Shown here piece after piece: positions 361 through 59,724 of a stretch of DNA of 64,000 bases. A model generated the notes under the pieces. The model saw nothing but the letters and a program-made list of their open reading frames with translations. It had not been told where the DNA came from and ran no database searches. The translations under genes were made by a program, and so were the position numbers. Numbering within the stretch: position 1 is the stretch's first letter; the number at the start of each line of letters is the position of its first letter. Source of the stretch: Gyromitra esculenta (Eukaryota; Ascomycota; Pezizomycetes; Pezizales; Discinaceae); NCBI GenBank assembly GCA_038503075.1, contig JBCAML010000006.1, forward strand, positions 1,550,001-1,614,000, read 5' to 3'.

Positions 361-425
361 CTATTTCTTCTTGTTGACAAGCGTGACCACAACCGCAATG
401 ATGATGATAACGATGATGATAAGGA
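361..425 (-). other. Syntaxin alternative last exon C (distal)
   Basis: The acceptor is AAACAG at 426-427 on the minus strand, with a TCTAAC branch site about 25 nt upstream. It has 65 nt and enters in phase 1. It encodes an Ile/Val membrane segment and ends VVVTLVNKKK-stop (TAG at 361-363). Using it means skipping exons A and B, with an intron of 777 nt. Bases 1-360 beyond it hold no gene and may be its 3' untranslated region. Confidence 0.8.
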
Positions 426-2516
426 CTGTTTTCCATGGCAAAACAATGTTAGAAAAAACCAGAAAAAATCAGACAACCAAACACACCATGTCATGCCATC
501 ATCCATCAACGCCATCCATCCCGAAGAGCGATAGTATATCGTAGAAAGGGCGAGAGAAAAAAAATTATAAGAAAGGGTTTTAAAAAAATGAGCGTATAAA
601 AATAAAAGACTTAAGCATCATCCTCTCCCCTAGTGTCCAAATGATACAATTCCGCCAGGTATAGATATATCTCTAACCAATGGCCTAGTCGGTGAGACAT
701 GGCCATCCGATCACCACACACCCTGAACCTTCGTCACCACCAGAGCGATCACGATAATAGCAATGATGATGAGGACTAAATTGTAGCACATGCAACACAG
801 GTTTTGGTGGTTAGGATCTTTTCTTTTTGTCTCTTTCTTCGAGTAAAGAAGATTAAACAGGGGTGGGGCGAGGAAAAGGAAAGTGGGAAAAACAATCCGG
901 TCATATCCAACGAAATTTTTATGGGGGTGTCTTCATTTCTTCTGCACCTGCGTGACCACCACAGCGATCACGACGACGGCGACGATAATGAGAACTATCA
1001 TCCCACAATCCCACAGTGTAGGAATAGGGCCCTAGTTATTTTTCCGCGCGTGTAGAGCGCGATAGGGAAAAGGGATCCCAGAAATAATCGCCAAAAAAGT
1101 GAAAACTAGAATACAATCGCAAGGGCTAGGGTAATGGAAGGGAGATACCATCGAAGAATATAAAATGCAAAAACAAATAGGGAATGCTAGGGGTGAACTC
1201 ACGGACAATCAACAAGCACCACCACTTCTTGCGTCTCCTTGAGCGCGCCTTTTCTACTGCCTGACCGATCTGTTCTTGCGCCTGGTCGACATTGGTCTGG
1301 ATTTCCTCGCCACGTTGGTCGATGACTTCGACCATGGTTTCTTGCTCTTCCACGAGCTGCTCCATCTGGTTGAAGAGATCGGCGAGTTCGATTATGGTCT
1401 TCTCAATGCGTTGGATTTCATTGTGTCGAGCCTGGACTTCGCGAAGAGCTGATCGGGCTTCACCACGACGGTTGCCGGTAAGGAGCTGTGCAATTCGTTA
1501 GCTGGAGCACATCAGAATTTTTCGAAGCTTGAAGTGAAAACGCACAGCCTGTGAGAAGATTTGCGCTCCCTGGGAGTCGTTACAGGCTTCCTCAACCTCC
1601 TGCTCTGTCGCATCTGGTTTGACGATCCTGTACTGTCTTGCCATCTGCTCTTTCGACCTCTTTGAGTACGTCGCCTCCACTGATTGGTATTTCCTTAGAG
1701 TGTCCTTGAAGTTCCTGTCTAAGTTGCCGACCTGAGGGCCCTTCGTAGGATCCGAAGCCGCCTTGCCCTTCAACCTCTTGATTCTATTCGCCAAGTTCTT
1801 ATTCAGCGCTGAAGTCTCGGCCACCAAAGCGTCCAATTGGTGCTGGGTTTGCGAAGAAGTAGATTCATCGATGTCAGTGAGTGAGCGTTGATGGAGAGAT
1901 TCGATACGCGAGATGTTGGCTTTAACGGTGTCGATGCCTTCTCGGAGCTCATTGACTTCGGTGAAAAATTCCTGTTGAGAGTCTCCACCATAGCCAGGGG
2001 CTGAACCACTATCCATGTTGCCCATTTCGTAATTGTTCCCTGCACCTAACGGGGAGTACGGTTCAACTTTTAGTTTGTTTACAAAATCAACCTCCAATCG
2101 CTTCTCAACATTTTCTCTGCTTCCGCGCAACAAAAGGGGGTGTGTTCTCCTACCTGGCCCACCACTACCACTATATCCACCGCTGGCGCCATAGTTATCG
2201 TTGGGATTGTAGCTACCCTGTTGTGCGTACGGGTTACTTTGGCTGTAGCCGTTGGCAAATCATGTCAGCACCGTAGCAAAGGATAAATAATCAATCAGAT
2301 GTCCTCGGTCGCGTCGACGAGTCGCATCCCCTAGAGAGATGCGAGCCGAGAAATCGAGTCTTGGAACATCACGAGGCAAAAAAGATGGACTAGCAGTAAA
2401 ACGCACCCGTAACCACTCTAAAATTTGAGAGAAATGTTAGCTACTGGTCAAAACACGAATGTAGCTTTCCCGTTGCCGAGGGACATGGGAGATGACGATG
2501 GTAAACATACACTCAT
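361..2516 (-). CDS. Plasma-membrane syntaxin (Sso1/2-type t-SNARE) with three alternative last exons
   Basis: Qa-SNARE that pairs with SNAP-25-type and synaptobrevin partners to fuse secretory vesicles with the plasma membrane. Exons in coding order: 2511-2516 (Met-Ser only), 2407-2417 (11 nt), 2154-2242, 1546-2045, 1203-1485, then one of three last exons (933-994, 711-775 or 361-425). All phases close. The N-terminus is Gly/Ser/Tyr/Asn-rich. A helical Habc-type region follows (with FFTEVNELREGI), then the SNARE helix in exon 5 (QMEQLVEEQETMVEVIDQRG), with the ionic-layer Gln expected from the family. A basic stretch RSRRRKKWW precedes the membrane anchor, whose first residues CLLIV end exon 5. 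The isoforms are about 316-318 residues. Family assignment is strong; which last exon is used, and when, cannot be read from sequence. Confidence 0.9.
711..775 (-). other. Syntaxin alternative last exon B (middle)
   Basis: The acceptor is AATTTAG at 776-777 on the minus strand, preceded by a clear CCTAACC branch site. It has 65 nt and enters in phase 1. It encodes an Ile-rich membrane segment and ends ALVVTKVQGVW-stop. About 13 of 20 residues match exon A, so it looks like a duplicated exon, but it lacks the terminal lysine pair. Confidence 0.8.
933..994 (-). other. Syntaxin alternative last exon A (proximal)
   Basis: The acceptor is GATAG at 995-996 on the minus strand, with an ATAACTA branch-like site upstream. 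The exon has 62 nt and enters in phase 1, matching the exon 5 donor GTGAGT. It completes the membrane anchor with a Val/Ile-rich run and ends VVTQVQKK-stop (TGA at 933-935). It is the nearest of the three and probably the default form. Confidence 0.82.
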
Positions 2517-14026: not shown

Positions 14027-15501
14027 GATGCTGGCGGTGATGTACAGCCTCTGCTGGGTGTTCCAAAGTACTGTAATTTAAAGAGGGCCCAGACGAAAGA
14101 AGGGGGAGATTGAGCGGATATCAGAAGCATCGCCGTGGCGGCAGAACGGCAGAGGCAGTGTTCCTGCATGTGGCCGATCCCCGCGAGGGTGCTGTAGCTG
14201 CGTGTAGAGCAGAATGCAGCTCCCAGTTCTCTCCAGGCCCCGGTGCAAGCCGAGAAGAAGTCTGTAGAGTGGCATGAACAATCCTGCAGTGCCTACATGT
14301 ATGCGCCCTAGAGTACTCTGTGTACTCCAAGAACATCTACAGAGAGCAGAACCCACAGCCAAGCACTCCCAGCTCAAGCCTGAGCACTCCACAAACAACT
14401 CCATCCCTTGATGCACGCGTGCGTGTGCGGCGTTAGGACCACCAGCCTAAAGCCCAGCCTTCCTCTTCCTGTATTCCTGTATTCGTTTATGCAGGGCGCG
14501 ATCGAGCTCAGCCCTAATGATATCATTCCCGGTATTTCTCGGCTCCGACAGGAAAACGCGCGCCAAGAGTTCCAGACATTGGAAGTACAGACAAACAGAA
14601 ACTAGAAACGTCATAACGGGAGGAAAGCCCTTGCGTTCGCACCGCTCTGTTCGCTCGTGACGACGATTCCGCCACATCACAGGATGCATCGTGCATGGAC
14701 TCGCTGGCCCCTCACTGAACCGGGTTTTCTGCAAACAGAGGAGTGGGAGGGAGGAAAGTGGAATACTGGAGTTAAATAATAATAATGGGTTCGTGGAATT
14801 TGACTTTTTTTGCAGAGATCTCTACTTGTGATGAAGTATGTATGCAGCCCGAGAGAAGAAGAGGGGGAAAAAGGGATTGAAATAGATACAGTAGAAATAT
14901 GTTCAGCGAAGGGGGGTATATCGAAAGGAGGGTATCCAATCAACTGTACAAACCAATGATAATAGTAACAAAGAAAAGAAAAAAAGTCTTCCATCCAGGT
15001 ATCCCTCAAGTCCAAATATTTCCATTCATCCGTAAAGCCCCATCACCGTAGACTCCATCGATCGTCAAAACATCCCTCCCATCCTTTTCGAACCAACTAA
15101 ACACTATACCCAACCCTTCCCAATTGCGCCAAACTAGGAAAATAAAAAAATAAAAAAACCACCAGCCCATCCATTGCCTCATACAATCTCATTGCATCCG
15201 TCCAGCCCGTCCGTCTCCATTGGTAATGATGATAACTCCCCAAATGCCCCAACCAGAAAGTAAAAGACCCCTAAGGAAATAGTAAAAATAAGCGGAAAGG
15301 GGATCCCTCTCCAGCCAAGTCGTAATGTCGTTTCGTAAAATTCGTAATCATTCATGATGCGAGATGATATAGCTATGCCGATGCGATAGCCGTACTTTGA
15401 GCGCGAAACGAAGAGGCAGTGATGAAAAAAATAAAAAGTATACAAGCGAAATTTTGTACCACAAGAAAGTCCAGAGAGAGAGGGTGTGTGTGGGTGGATT
15501 T
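14027..15501. other. Gene-free stretch upstream of the M20 peptidase
   Basis: It holds the peptidase promoter and the 3' end of the 97-residue membrane protein gene. Frames of 65-112 residues at 14.1-15.0 kb overlap on both strands and look random. A TACATGTA palindrome lies at 14294-14301. Nothing else was recognised. Confidence 0.45.
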
Positions 15502-54896: not shown

Positions 54897-56101
54897 TCAA
54901 AGCTCACCCTCCACTTCTTTAAGCTGATCACACGTCACCTCATCCTCCCCATCTTTAAGATATCTAGTCCCGAACCTATCCACAGCTTCCTCCCCTCTTT
55001 CCCGCCCATATTCTGCCGCCTCCGCAATCCTGATCTTCCTCAGGAACGAATCTTCCGGCACGCACAGCCCCATCCGGTGGAAATAATCTCTATGCGCCCA
55101 AAACAGTTGCAACGCATTCGCATTCCCTTTCGCGATACAAGTGGGGTCCTCATTGCCGTTACACAGTCTTATGTCGCAGCGTGTATAAGGGAGCTGTGGC
55201 GCAGAGATATAGTACTCATATGCATGTTGGACGTACCCCCACTGAGTCAATGGCACGAGGGGAACCGGATCATGACTATGCGTAACGCGGCGGTACGTAT
55301 CCGGCGTGAACTTTCGATTGAAAAACTCCGCAAGCTCCAAATTGCCAACCTTCGGCTCACCAAACGTTGTGACGGTTGGCTTCCAGCCACGTCCTTGATA
55401 ATCGAGTCCAGCGAGCGCAGCCACAGCGCCGCCGAGAGAGTGACCCACAAGTGTCAGCGCATACTCTGGATACTGCTCTACGAGCTCAGCGACAACATGA
55501 GATATGATGAGATTGCTCTGCGACCAGCTTTCGAGGAAGCCAGCGTGCACGAAGCAGTTTTCGCATTTATCCGAGTTGGCGCTGTGGCCCTCGGAGGGGT
55601 ACGGGATGTATTCCTGCTTGTTGAAGGAGAGATCTGCGAGGGCGTTGACGATCGAGTAGGTTCCGCGGAAAGCGATGATGATGCGTGGGACAGCGGGAGG
55701 ATGGGAGAGCGCAATGTAGCCGCAGGAGTCAGAAAGGGTGAGACCAGTATTCCAGGTCTAGTTGTGTGCATTAGCGATATTCCTGTGCTGTTTCAATGGG
55801 CAGGGCGGGTATGTACCTGCTTCAGCTCAAAAGTGGGGAAGTTTTTGCAGAAGGATAGACATTCGAACGGCGGTTCAACGCCCGTGTTGAGAGAGCCAAC
55901 GCAATAGGCGATGTCCACGATCCGCGAGAGTTCTTCAAATTCATCGTAGAGATCCTGGGCTATGGGGTCGTTTTTGAGAGCCGTGGACGAGGCACCGAGG
56001 CGAATTTGAGCTGAGATTGCAGGAACCGGGCTGGGAACCGCGGAGGAGAACGGCGACAGCAGCAGAGCCAGCAGAACAAACGGAGACAGACGGCGGAGCA
56101 T
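54897..56101 (-). CDS. Secreted class 3 (Rhizomucor-type) lipase, apparently frameshifted
   Basis: Triacylglycerol lipase or feruloyl-esterase-like alpha/beta hydrolase. Exons in coding order: 55817-56101 and 54897-55758, about 382 residues. A signal peptide is present (MLRRLSPFVLLALLLSPFSS), then AQDLYDEFEELSRIVDIAYC. Exon 2 has FRGTYSIVNALADL (oxyanion region), the nucleophile elbow TLVGHSLGGAVAALAG, the catalytic Asp in HSHDPVPLVP and the catalytic His in LFWAHRDYF. Paired cysteines occur (CENCF). At the start of exon 2 the frame of TWNTGL (fixed by the splice junction) and that of TLSDSCGYIALSHPP differ by one base, near 55740. No alternative splice site found repairs this, so a +1 insertion or a sequencing error is likely. 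The gene is divergent from Spp2. Confidence 0.83.
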
Positions 56102-56429
56102 TGGGGAGACGGAGACGAAGACGAAGACGAAGACGACCTGGAGCAGCAGCAGGGGAGGAGAGAGGCATAGGGGAGAAGCCAGGAGGCGTTGCGGGGACAC
56201 GACCCAGATCTGGTGGGCGACGATGCCGCGTGACGGACATCTGTTGAGCTTCCCGTCATTTCTGGAGAAAAGTCCGGGGAAGTGTGTCACGTGCCTCCGT
56301 CGCTGCCTCTGCCAAGCCGCTGCGGAGCTCCAACTCCATCTCTTCTCCCTCCTCCACCCTCAGCTTCTCTCACCACCACCCTCCTCCACCCCAGCTCCTG
56401 TCTGCTCACTGCTCGCTGCTCGGACAGCC
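56102..56429. promoter_or_regulatory. Divergent promoter region, lipase / Spp2
   Basis: These 328 bp lie between divergent start codons. The lipase leader holds a GAAGAC-type repeat at about 56109-56142. Open frames extend across this region on both strands because it is GC-rich; they are not expected to be coding. Confidence 0.45.
56109..56142. repeat. (GAAGAC)n hexamer repeat in the lipase leader
   Basis: About five imperfect GAGACG/GAAGAC units, directly upstream of the lipase start codon. Confidence 0.75.
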
Positions 56430-57836
56430 ATGGCCTCCCCAGCCCCTACTGACACTCCCCGTCCGCCACCCTCCTTCTCCATCTCCCTCGGTCCCGCCAA
56501 ACCAAAACCCGCCCCTCGCAAACCCGCCCCTACCTTCGCCCCAAAGCGCTCCGCCGCGCATCTTGACTCAGACGACGAAGACCACCATGAAGAAGAAGAG
56601 CGCGCAAACAAAGTACAGCTGGTCACAGGCTTCGACGCAACCCGTGGCGGTGCTGTCGACCTTGACGACGCTCCAAAGAAACCCCAGGGCCCACTCGTAA
56701 TCCCGAAACTCTCCAACCGCAACTGGCGCGAGGAAGCAGAGCGCCGTCGCGGTGGCAGCGGGCAGTCAAAGAAGGCGATCTACCTCCCGCCAGAAGCACT
56801 CGCGAAGCAGAAGGGCGGATTGACGGAGGAAGACTTGGTGGAAAAAGATGTGACAGAGCAGAAATACGGACTACAGACTTTTGATAGAAAGGCTGAAGAA
56901 ACACCGGTAGAAACTGAATCGGCACCTTCTACAGATGATGCTCCCCCGCCAGTCCCGAAGACGGAGGAGGAAATCGCCCTTGCATCCCTTCTCCGAGGCG
57001 ACGCTGCAGCGCCTTCAACCCTCGTTCTTGCTCCCACCCCCGCAAGTAATGGCAATGACTGGCGCGCTGCTCGAAACGCCGTACAGAATGAAGACGCGGC
57101 ATTCAAAACCGATGTCGCCTCCCGTCCGGAAATGGCAACACTGGAGGATTACGCCGCGGTCCCCGTCGAAGAGTTCGGCGCAGCTCTCCTCCGTGGAATG
57201 GGTTGGAAGGAAGGTGACGAAGTCGGCAAGCGACGGGGTGCAGCGAGCAAGCCGCGAGTGGTTGAGAAGCGACCAGCATTCTTAGGAATAGGCGCAAAGG
57301 CGAAGGAGGAGATCCCGGAACTGGGGACATGGGGGAAGGGGGACAAAAAACGGCGGGGAAGGCAGGATACAACTTATATCCCTGTTGTAATGGTAGACAA
57401 AAAGACAGGGAAGATTGTGGACCCTGCACAAGTAGAGGCAGAGGCAGCCGCAGCGACAAACACGAATGGGAATAGCAAGGGGGAACGCGAGAGTGAGCGG
57501 GACCGCGATAGGGATTCCTCAAAGAGAGATAGATCGCGCGACCGTGGCAGCAGGAGTGAACGGAGAGACCGCGAGCGAAGCTACGATTCATCTGATCGAC
57601 GGCGCCGAGACCGAGACCGATCTCGGGATCGTGGAGGTAGAGACAGTGGCAGGGACAGAGACAGTGGTAGGGACAGAGACAGTGGTAGGGACAGAGACAG
57701 TGGTAGAGATAGAGATAGAGACAGGGATAGAGAACGGAGGGGAGGCGATGGCCGCGATAGGCGACGAGGCGACGACCGAAGAAGAGACGATAGAAAGGAT
57801 CGTGATCGTGATCGTGATCGGAGGGAAAGGCGTTAA
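56430..57836 (+). CDS. SPP2: Pre-mRNA-splicing factor Spp2 (G-patch, GPKOW-like)
   Basis: G-patch cofactor that activates the DEAH helicase Prp2 in the first catalytic step of splicing. Single exon, 468 residues. The N-terminus is Pro-rich and basic (SFSISLGPAKPKPAPRK), as in Spp2 proteins. The middle is acidic and disordered (LDSDDEDHHEEEE, YLPPEALAKQKGGLTEEDL). The G-patch-type motif is VPVEEFGAALLRGMGWKEGD at about residue 245, followed by KRRGAASKPRVVEKRPAFLGIGA. The C-terminal 110 residues are an Arg/Asp/Ser tail with an internal repeat. An in-frame upstream Met at 56223 would add a GC-rich leader without similarity, so the Met at 56430 is preferred. Confidence 0.9.
   Translation: MASPAPTDTPRPPPSFSISLGPAKPKPAPRKPAPTFAPKRSAAHLDSDDEDHHEEEERANKVQLVTGFDATRGGAVDLDDAPKKPQGPLVIPKLSNRNWREEAERRRGGSGQSKKAIYLPPEALAKQKGGLTEEDLVEKDVTEQKYGLQTFDRKAEETPVETESAPSTDDAPPPVPKTEEEIALASLLRGDAAAPSTLVLAPTPASNGNDWRAARNAVQNEDAAFKTDVASRPEMATLEDYAAVPVEEFGAALLRGMGWKEGDEVGKRRGAASKPRVVEKRPAFLGIGAKAKEEIPELGTWGKGDKKRRGRQDTTYIPVVMVDKKTGKIVDPAQVEAEAAAATNTNGNSKGERESERDRDRDSSKRDRSRDRGSRSERRDRERSYDSSDRRRRDRDRSRDRGGRDSGRDRDSGRDRDSGRDRDSGRDRDRDRDRERRGGDGRDRRRGDDRRRDDRKDRDRDRDRRERR
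57636..57707 (+). repeat. 18-nt coding tandem repeat in Spp2 (about 4 copies)
   Basis: Nearly identical copies of an 18-nt unit (GGGACAGAGACAGTGGTA) encode Gly-Arg-Asp-Arg-Asp-Ser repeats in the RD tail. Copy number probably varies between strains. Confidence 0.85.
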
Positions 57837-59724
57837 TTTGAGGTTATTTTTTTAAAAAAAAAATGTATTAGGACTATGAGCATGAGCTGTACGATATAGA
57901 TCTTTATTTTTATTTTTATTTTTTTATAAAATTGCTTGCATGTCAGCGAGGTGGGGTAGTTTGAAGGGACAGGGTTGATACCAATTTACCTGGGGGGGGG
58001 GAATGGAGAATTTGAATATTAATGGGCTATTTATTGGCTGGATCTCTGTGTTTACTTGGTTGTGTTGTAGCTATCTAGCTTCGCAGCGTCTGGGATTGAA
58101 GAGAAAGTCGAAACTTGGCGGGGGATAATACAGGAGATCGGAGGTCTGGGGTGCTTATATTCCTGCGTATCTCGAGAATAACATGTATCCTTGGTATATA
58201 CAAACCTTGCAGTAAGCAGTAAATAGTTAGAGAATCACAGAATCTCACTCGAGTGCTCGTCTCCTCAACATCCAATAAACAGCACTATCCCATCCCACAG
58301 ACATCATATTGACTTAAAACACACAAAACCAATGTAGCAACTCATTTCAGAGCTTTAATTAATATCATCGTAGGATAGTTAAAATGGGATACAACAGCGA
58401 AGATTCCCCAATTTCTATAGGATAGAAAATTCGACTCATGCTCCTTTTTCTTTTATTAACGAATATTGAGGTTAAGGTATAGTTTAATGGGAGAAGCTCT
58501 GGATTCCTAGGATAGTATCAAACCTGGTTCCCCTAAGTAAGCCAGTTCAAGTCCCCGGTTCGTGTCCGGTAGACTATGGTCTCTCCCCACCGGAGTAGAA
58601 GAACTTTTTGTTGGCCCTCCTGTACGTGCAGAAACTTGGTCAGAGTTTTTCTTTATATTTGATCACGGCGTTGTTCAGTCTCGCCCAAGGGATAAGAGAG
58701 GGGCGTGTGGGCTTCTGCGTTTTGCTCGGGTTTGGTTCCCGCGGTGGTGCTTGCGAAATGCGGCCATTTAGTCACGGCTACATGTACTTTATATCTATAC
58801 TCAATCCTTTACTCCCGCTCTACAGATCTTGCGGTGAAGTTTCCCCCGAAGGCCTCGATAATGCTGAAGAAACGCCAAGTAGCACCGGATGCTTCAAAAA
58901 TAAGTACCTGCAACAAACGAAGCACCATTTATTATTTCAAACCCGAACGATGAAGAGACGGGGCAAAATCAAAACGACTGTAAAAGCAAATGCCCAAACG
59001 TTCAGCCCATCCGTACAATGTTCTTAGGTACATATATCCAAAGGCAGAGATATCCTCAACCTCAATATCTGACTTCGTCGCAATCAACCAAAAAGACCCA
59101 TAAAAGAAAGACAGACATAACTCTCCAGATCTCCCAAATCCGTATTTCACCCAAAACTATTCCTCCTAACCTGTCTCTTTTCCATTCCAATACCATTATC
59201 ATCTCACATTAAGCATAAGGCTTTTTTTTTCGTCCATAAAAGAAACAGCAAACCGAAATCACTCCACCCCCGGTCCCCCTACAACCTCAAAAATGACATC
59301 CAAGAAGTAAATCGACAAAAATCGAATAAAAAATAAGGTGACTAAATCGGCTAGCTAGTTAGAATATATATTCCCGCTCGTTTAAAAAAAGAACGAGGGT
59401 GGAGTGACTGAATCTGGTATAAGTAAGTATATGCGTGTAAGTTTCCAGCAACCCAACCAACCACAATACAAAATCCCAACCCGGCTCGGGTGGGTCCCTA
59501 ATTAATCATAACCATCGAATCGAAATATACTTGTCACAAAAAAGAAAGAAGAAGAAAAAGAAAGTCAACCTCTGGAACAAAATTTCGTACAGCAACAAAT
59601 AAAGAAAACTTGTCATGCCCTACTTTCTCCTATCAACTCAAGTTAAATCAAGTCAAACCCTCTTTAAGCTCTGATTCCAAAATCGAATATAGCCACTCAG
59701 GGGAGGAAGAAAGTGCTACCGATC
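57837..59724. other. Convergent gap between Spp2 and the ArfGAP gene
   Basis: Both genes end here. It has an A/T-rich Spp2 3' region with TTTTTA repeats (57900-57925), a G run near 57992, and one TACATGTA (58779-58786). A tRNA-like segment near 58473-58572 was examined and rejected. Small frames at 58.5-59.2 kb have no similarity. Confidence 0.45.

Follow-up and report, generated by a model that had tools for sequence, protein, structure and literature searches.

Three versions of a single secretory syntaxin, differing in the outer half of the membrane anchor and in the few residues behind it, could be made from one gene of Gyromitra esculenta. In the window, by which we mean the whole 64,000-nucleotide stretch of DNA that was analysed, an Sso-type syntaxin gene appears to have had its last exon duplicated twice in tandem, and its pre-mRNA would be spliced from the donor at 1202 to one of three acceptors, with one last exon per transcript. 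The protein would thereby receive one of three outer anchor halves, followed by a few residues that face outwards (TQVQKK, TKVQGVW or TLVNKKK). We put the probability of this reading at roughly 0.7. Its best-supported element is that these are tandem, phase-matched alternative last exons apparently kept by selection, and we infer that all three acceptors are spliced in G. esculenta. At the level of the sequence, the array itself, its common phase, its stops and the conservation of each exon's predicted product in some relatives are established. The features are as follows.

2516-361, minus strand: Sso-type (Qa) syntaxin gene, identified from its sequence, the product presumably at the plasma membrane
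1203..2516, minus strand: shared coding part in five exons (open joined translation; Pfam domains above their cut-offs)
1197..1202, minus strand: 5' splice donor common to the three last exons, GTGAGT in phase 1, carrying over one base, C
1065..1079, minus strand: the 15-mer GGGATCCCTTTTCCC of the last intron, which may regulate the choice of acceptor; found from the read-throughs of relatives
933..994, minus strand: alternative last exon A, 62 nt, ending TQVQKK and a stop; acceptor AG at 996-995
711..775, minus strand: alternative last exon B, 65 nt, ending TKVQGVW and a stop; acceptor AG at 777-776
361..425, minus strand: alternative last exon C, 65 nt, ending TLVNKKK and a stop; acceptor AG at 427-426

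The gene and its three last exons

What kind of syntaxin is this? The shared exons (2516-2511, 2417-2407, 2242-2154, 2045-1546 and 1485-1203), separated by four introns of 93, 164, 108 and 60 nt, encode a Syntaxin domain, a SNARE motif, the basic segment RRRKKWW and a first anchor half, CLLIV; RRRKKWWCLLIV and one further base close the shared part, just before the donor. A Pfam search gave 47.9 bits for PF00804 (Syntaxin, N-terminal; cut-off 26.7) and 48.1 bits for PF05739 (SNARE, C-terminal; cut-off 26.8). The closest solved structures are yeast SSO1 (9cru_K, E 1.9e-51) and SSO2 (7q83_B, E 9e-48), and the nearest named protein among the matches listed is that of Morchella sextelata, 87% identical across 92% of the query, with Tuber next; both are Pezizales, and a tree joins the M. 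sextelata protein to the window syntaxin with support 100/99. Judged by its sequence, the product is an Sso-type (Qa) syntaxin, a family that would place it at the plasma membrane, paired with Sec9 and Snc.

From donor 1202 the last intron measures 208 nt to exon A, 427 nt to B and 777 nt to C. Exon A would add LLIIVAVVVIAVVVTQVQKK, exon B LLIIIAIIVIALVVTKVQGVW and exon C LLIIIVIIIIAVVVTLVNKKK, each entered in phase 1 with the carried base C filling the codon and each closed by its own stop. A script that joined the exons gave three isoforms, all open, of 316, 317 and 317 amino acids, which agrees with the first-pass annotation in both the tandem arrangement after this donor and the description of 62-65 nt exons with a common entry phase and separate stops.

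Could such an array be an accident of hydrophobic DNA? We scored every AG followed by a same-phase frame of 50-80 nt whose first 14 residues had a mean Kyte-Doolittle hydropathy of at least 3.0. Both strands of the window hold three such sites, which are A, B and C (7 pass at >= 2.5 and 21 at >= 2.0), and 18 stretches of 10 kb from the same genome, again on both strands (180 kb, 23,053 AGs), hold none, with 5 passing at >= 2.5 and 20 at >= 2.0. Against this background we reject chance hydrophobic frames as the origin of the three exons. An explanation by chance frames or by an assembly artefact, in whose favour we found nothing, has also to contend with 11 to 15 differences between one exon and another over 48 compared bases and with an A-then-B order that recurs in the contigs of relatives, bearing out the A-B pair; we regard it as close to negligible. 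We looked for a fourth anchor exon over the 7 kb that follow C and rejected it, the region offering only two weaker frames unlike the anchors (hydropathy 2.62 and 2.46, some 4-5 kb distant).

The exons resemble one another as duplicates would. All three pairs are similar at the DNA level with p = 0.005, the lowest value possible with 200 shuffles, and five of the six flank pairs show no similarity (the upstream A-C pair is marginal, p = 0.05). The products share a motif, A-[LV]-V-V-T, and dN/dS between exons is about 0.2 (dN 0.16-0.24, dS 0.64-1.08, over only 16 codons). The earlier suggestion of exon duplication is supported, and its companion, that selection keeps the exons, is supported by this ratio together with the conservation of each product in some relatives.

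The three anchors have hydrophobic runs of equal length, with a core of 18 residues, four of them shared, of which 11 to 13 are beta-branched across the three versions (8 Val and 4 Ile in A, 4 and 7 in B, 5 and 8 in C). One might conclude from such evenness that the differences in protein are nearly neutral, and that the choice of last exon counts chiefly for the 3' end of the mRNA, in stability, localisation or polyadenylation. We think this very improbable, since distinct types of tail recur across relatives, for example Trp as the last residue in B-type rows and endings rich in Lys in C-type ones.

The acceptors of the three exons do not look alike. A branch-point-like site had been proposed for each; it is present as CTAAC 35 nt from exon B and 23 nt from exon C, but exon A has no CTRAY in the last 80 nt of its intron, only an ATAAC 41 nt away, and the intron end is rich in purines. 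A weak nearest acceptor (A) would compete with better, more distant ones (B and C), a layout that would permit regulated choice.

Anchors of relatives

The anchor table comprised 30 proteins (the top 20 and ten further ones, from 120 listed of 433 matched). Five of them (P0004, P0016, P0018, P0019 and P0020) were left out, having run into the intron or out of frame, which leaves 25 proteins whose in-frame anchor can be read. Scoring places 9 of these closest to exon B, 16 to exon C and none to exon A. The tail of exon B is identical to that of P0002, which groups with Tuber, at 20 of 21 positions, to that of Tuber indicum P0006 at 19 of 21 and to that of M. sextelata P0001 at 17 of 21; the annotated form in both M. 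sextelata and T. indicum is B-type. The tail of exon C matches P0008 at 19 of 20 positions and P0011 at 19 of 21. The first-pass annotation had named a lack of B and C in related species as part of what would refute it, and conservation of their products was found. The remaining assignments to B or C are weak, most of all in nine rows around Kalaharituber and Dactylella. Two of the proteins left out, from Tuber magnatum and Geopyxis, could carry a B-like anchor if read in the other frame, though the residues are ambiguous.

In the tree built from the shared part, where only 10 of 28 inner branches have strong support, the B-type P0010, Wilcoxina P0013 and P0015 adjoin the C-type P0012 and P0008. 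The simplest account of this neighbourhood would be an ancestor that already had both exons; exon C itself did not turn up in Tuber or in further Morchella-like DNA, which was read through out-of-frame predicted proteins. P0002, P0003, P0008, P0011 and P0012 are full-length and intronless although their contigs reach at most 1.3 to 2.2 kb, and are therefore probably transcripts. These probable transcript contigs of other species carry B-type and C-type anchors and no A-type.

For exon A we turned to gene predictions of relatives that run on through the last intron in the wrong frame and, back-translated, allow that intron to be read. Exon A with its stop was recovered in this way from P0122, P0123 and P0124 (62 nt) and from P0147 (one codon longer), all on contigs of 10 to 65 kb; the back-translation forces the stop in P0122 and P0124 and allows it in P0123 and P0147. 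P0123 and P0124 also yield exon B, in the order A then B as in the window, over its first 49 nt and short of its last 16 nt. Differences from the window in exon B fall at 2 of 32, 0 of 19 and 11 of 32 informative sites in codon positions 1, 2 and 3, so that 11 of 13 lie at the third position, a coding pattern. The corresponding counts for exon A, in three relatives (P0147 was left out because of its extra codon), are 6 of 47, 2 of 37 and 9 of 63, a weaker pattern than that of B. Remains of an exon A may be present in the last intron of two Tuber-like read-throughs, P0136 and P0158, the back-translation being too ambiguous to say more; in P0158 the AG before it seems to be lost.

Does one exon, most likely B, nevertheless give nearly all the protein, the other two being duplicates in the transcript's long 3' portion that are spliced rarely or in error? 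The B-type anchor annotated in M. sextelata would fit this, as would the weak branch region of A and the length of the introns to B and C (427 and 777 nt, against 60-164 nt for the other four). So too would the missing A-type anchors: because none of the 25 in-frame anchors is closest to A, the case for the use of A is made by conservation alone. Yet exon A has kept its frame, its stop and its hydrophobicity in four relatives, and the product of C is nearly identical to the anchor of a protein, P0008, that as a whole is only 68% identical, which would be unlikely if the exon were unused. We consider a gene dominated by B unlikely on balance and retain the reading of three alternative last exons kept by selection.

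The intronic element and RNA structure

If acceptor choice is regulated, what might regulate it? The candidate is the 15-mer GGGATCCCTTTTCCC, which begins 124 nt into the last intron. We selected by pattern 32 proteins that read into that intron and compared each with 200 permutations of itself; 11 of the 32 fit the element at p <= 0.02, where about 0.6 would be expected. Five of these are Morchella-like (P0122, P0123, P0124, P0147 and P0149) and six are more distant (P0132, P0133, P0134, P0140, P0144 and P0153). Of the 32 read-throughs, 24 are as long as the shortest match, 33 residues, a cut that was chosen afterwards. Across the genome (47.1 Mb in 23 contigs), the exact 15-mer occurs once, and 7 more sites have one mismatch, against 2 for a reversed control. 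From its place and its conservation we infer that the element may act in splice choice, helping to set which acceptor is used.

A second copy with two mismatches (GGGATCCCCTTTCCG) lies at 15293-15307 on the minus strand, the pair exceeding shuffle expectation.

Mutually exclusive splicing by docking and selector sequences was considered and rejected: the best duplex of the element reaches -20.5 kcal/mol, and the best duplexes of 60 shuffles have a median of -19.4, and its pairing with downstream sites is no better than that of shuffles. Neither the fold from the donor to the end of exon A (z -1.73, matched by 11 of 200 shuffles) nor that of 1079-996 (z -1.65, 13 of 200) is clearly unusual. The 49 nt at the element (1031-1079, minus strand) are hairpin-prone and mildly unusual (z -2.41, 4 of 200), and back-translations lead us to suspect compensatory changes in this hairpin among relatives. 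A search of the first 3 kb, element included, matched no known RNA family up to E = 1.

Anchor switching in other systems

Anchor switching by alternative last exons is already known in animal syntaxins, as the first-pass annotation had stated. According to passages of PMC4946901, the isoforms of C. elegans unc-64 have different sequences over the final 14 anchor residues, and UNC-75/CELF selects between them; exons 8a and 8b there are alternative last exons that swap part of the anchor of a plasma-membrane syntaxin, much as A, B and C would here. Only UNC-64A rescued movement in that work, which cites an opposite result from another study. The differences are that unc-64 is an animal gene for which those passages describe two such exons, where ours has three, and that, as far as can be judged, the two arrangements arose separately. 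Mammalian syntaxin-2 (epimorphin), also an animal gene, has, in the material consulted, two isoforms against our three exons. The nearest parallel in number is tropomyosin, where in TPM1, lev-11 and Tm1 three tandem homologous 3' exons swap the C-terminus (excerpts of PMC9741552); those genes, unlike ours, encode an animal coiled-coil protein and not a membrane anchor.

Among fungi, the gene belongs to the same secretory syntaxin family as Sso1/Sso2, SsoA/SsoB and nsyn1/nsyn2. In the Pezizomycotina, however, the Sso/nsyn diversity described in parts of PMC2639358 lies in separate, diverged genes, whereas here an exon would have been duplicated inside one gene. The strings "splic", "exon" and "isoform" do not occur in PMC2639358, and PMC10950013, PMC10275640 and PMC10252874 mention neither splicing nor isoforms. 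Among the titles and abstracts that searches of open-licence literature brought up, none concerned a fungal syntaxin with alternative anchors, and an earlier description is possible. A search among viral contigs produced 7 pattern matches but no relative. In the fungi surveyed in PMC6176087, the sections consulted state that exon skipping makes up less than 1% of splicing events, and mutually exclusive exons less than 0.2%, and describe alternative last exons as a common class.

By analogy with these systems, the isoforms may differ in membrane sorting or fusion behaviour, with possible effects on rafts and fusion pores. The role of the SNARE anchor has been probed with v-SNARE variants in mouse cells (PMC7239655), and an array of duplicated exons through which a t-SNARE exchanges nothing but its anchor would, if real, be a natural experiment on whether the anchor has any task beyond holding the protein in the membrane. 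It would mean, too, that animals and fungi had arrived separately at the same solution for switching an anchor. More tentatively, and with somewhat more doubt than belief, we can imagine an old, regulated anchor switch of the Pezizales, convergent with that of animal syntaxins, with B and C dating from the ancestor of Morchella, Tuber and Wilcoxina, A added in the Morchella line, the intronic element governing the choice, and a fusion machinery specific to stage or site as the outcome.

A contrast within the genome, and a point in favour of our reading, is a second, diverged secretory syntaxin on contig 5 (L017:2133-3279), 42% identical in the last part, with one uninterrupted anchor exon and a long Thr/Ala/Pro-rich tail after the anchor. 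Far from the gene, at 56001-58000 of the window, GC rises to 0.572 with an AT skew of 0.25, and there are short tandem repeats, including an 18-bp unit at 57639-57733.
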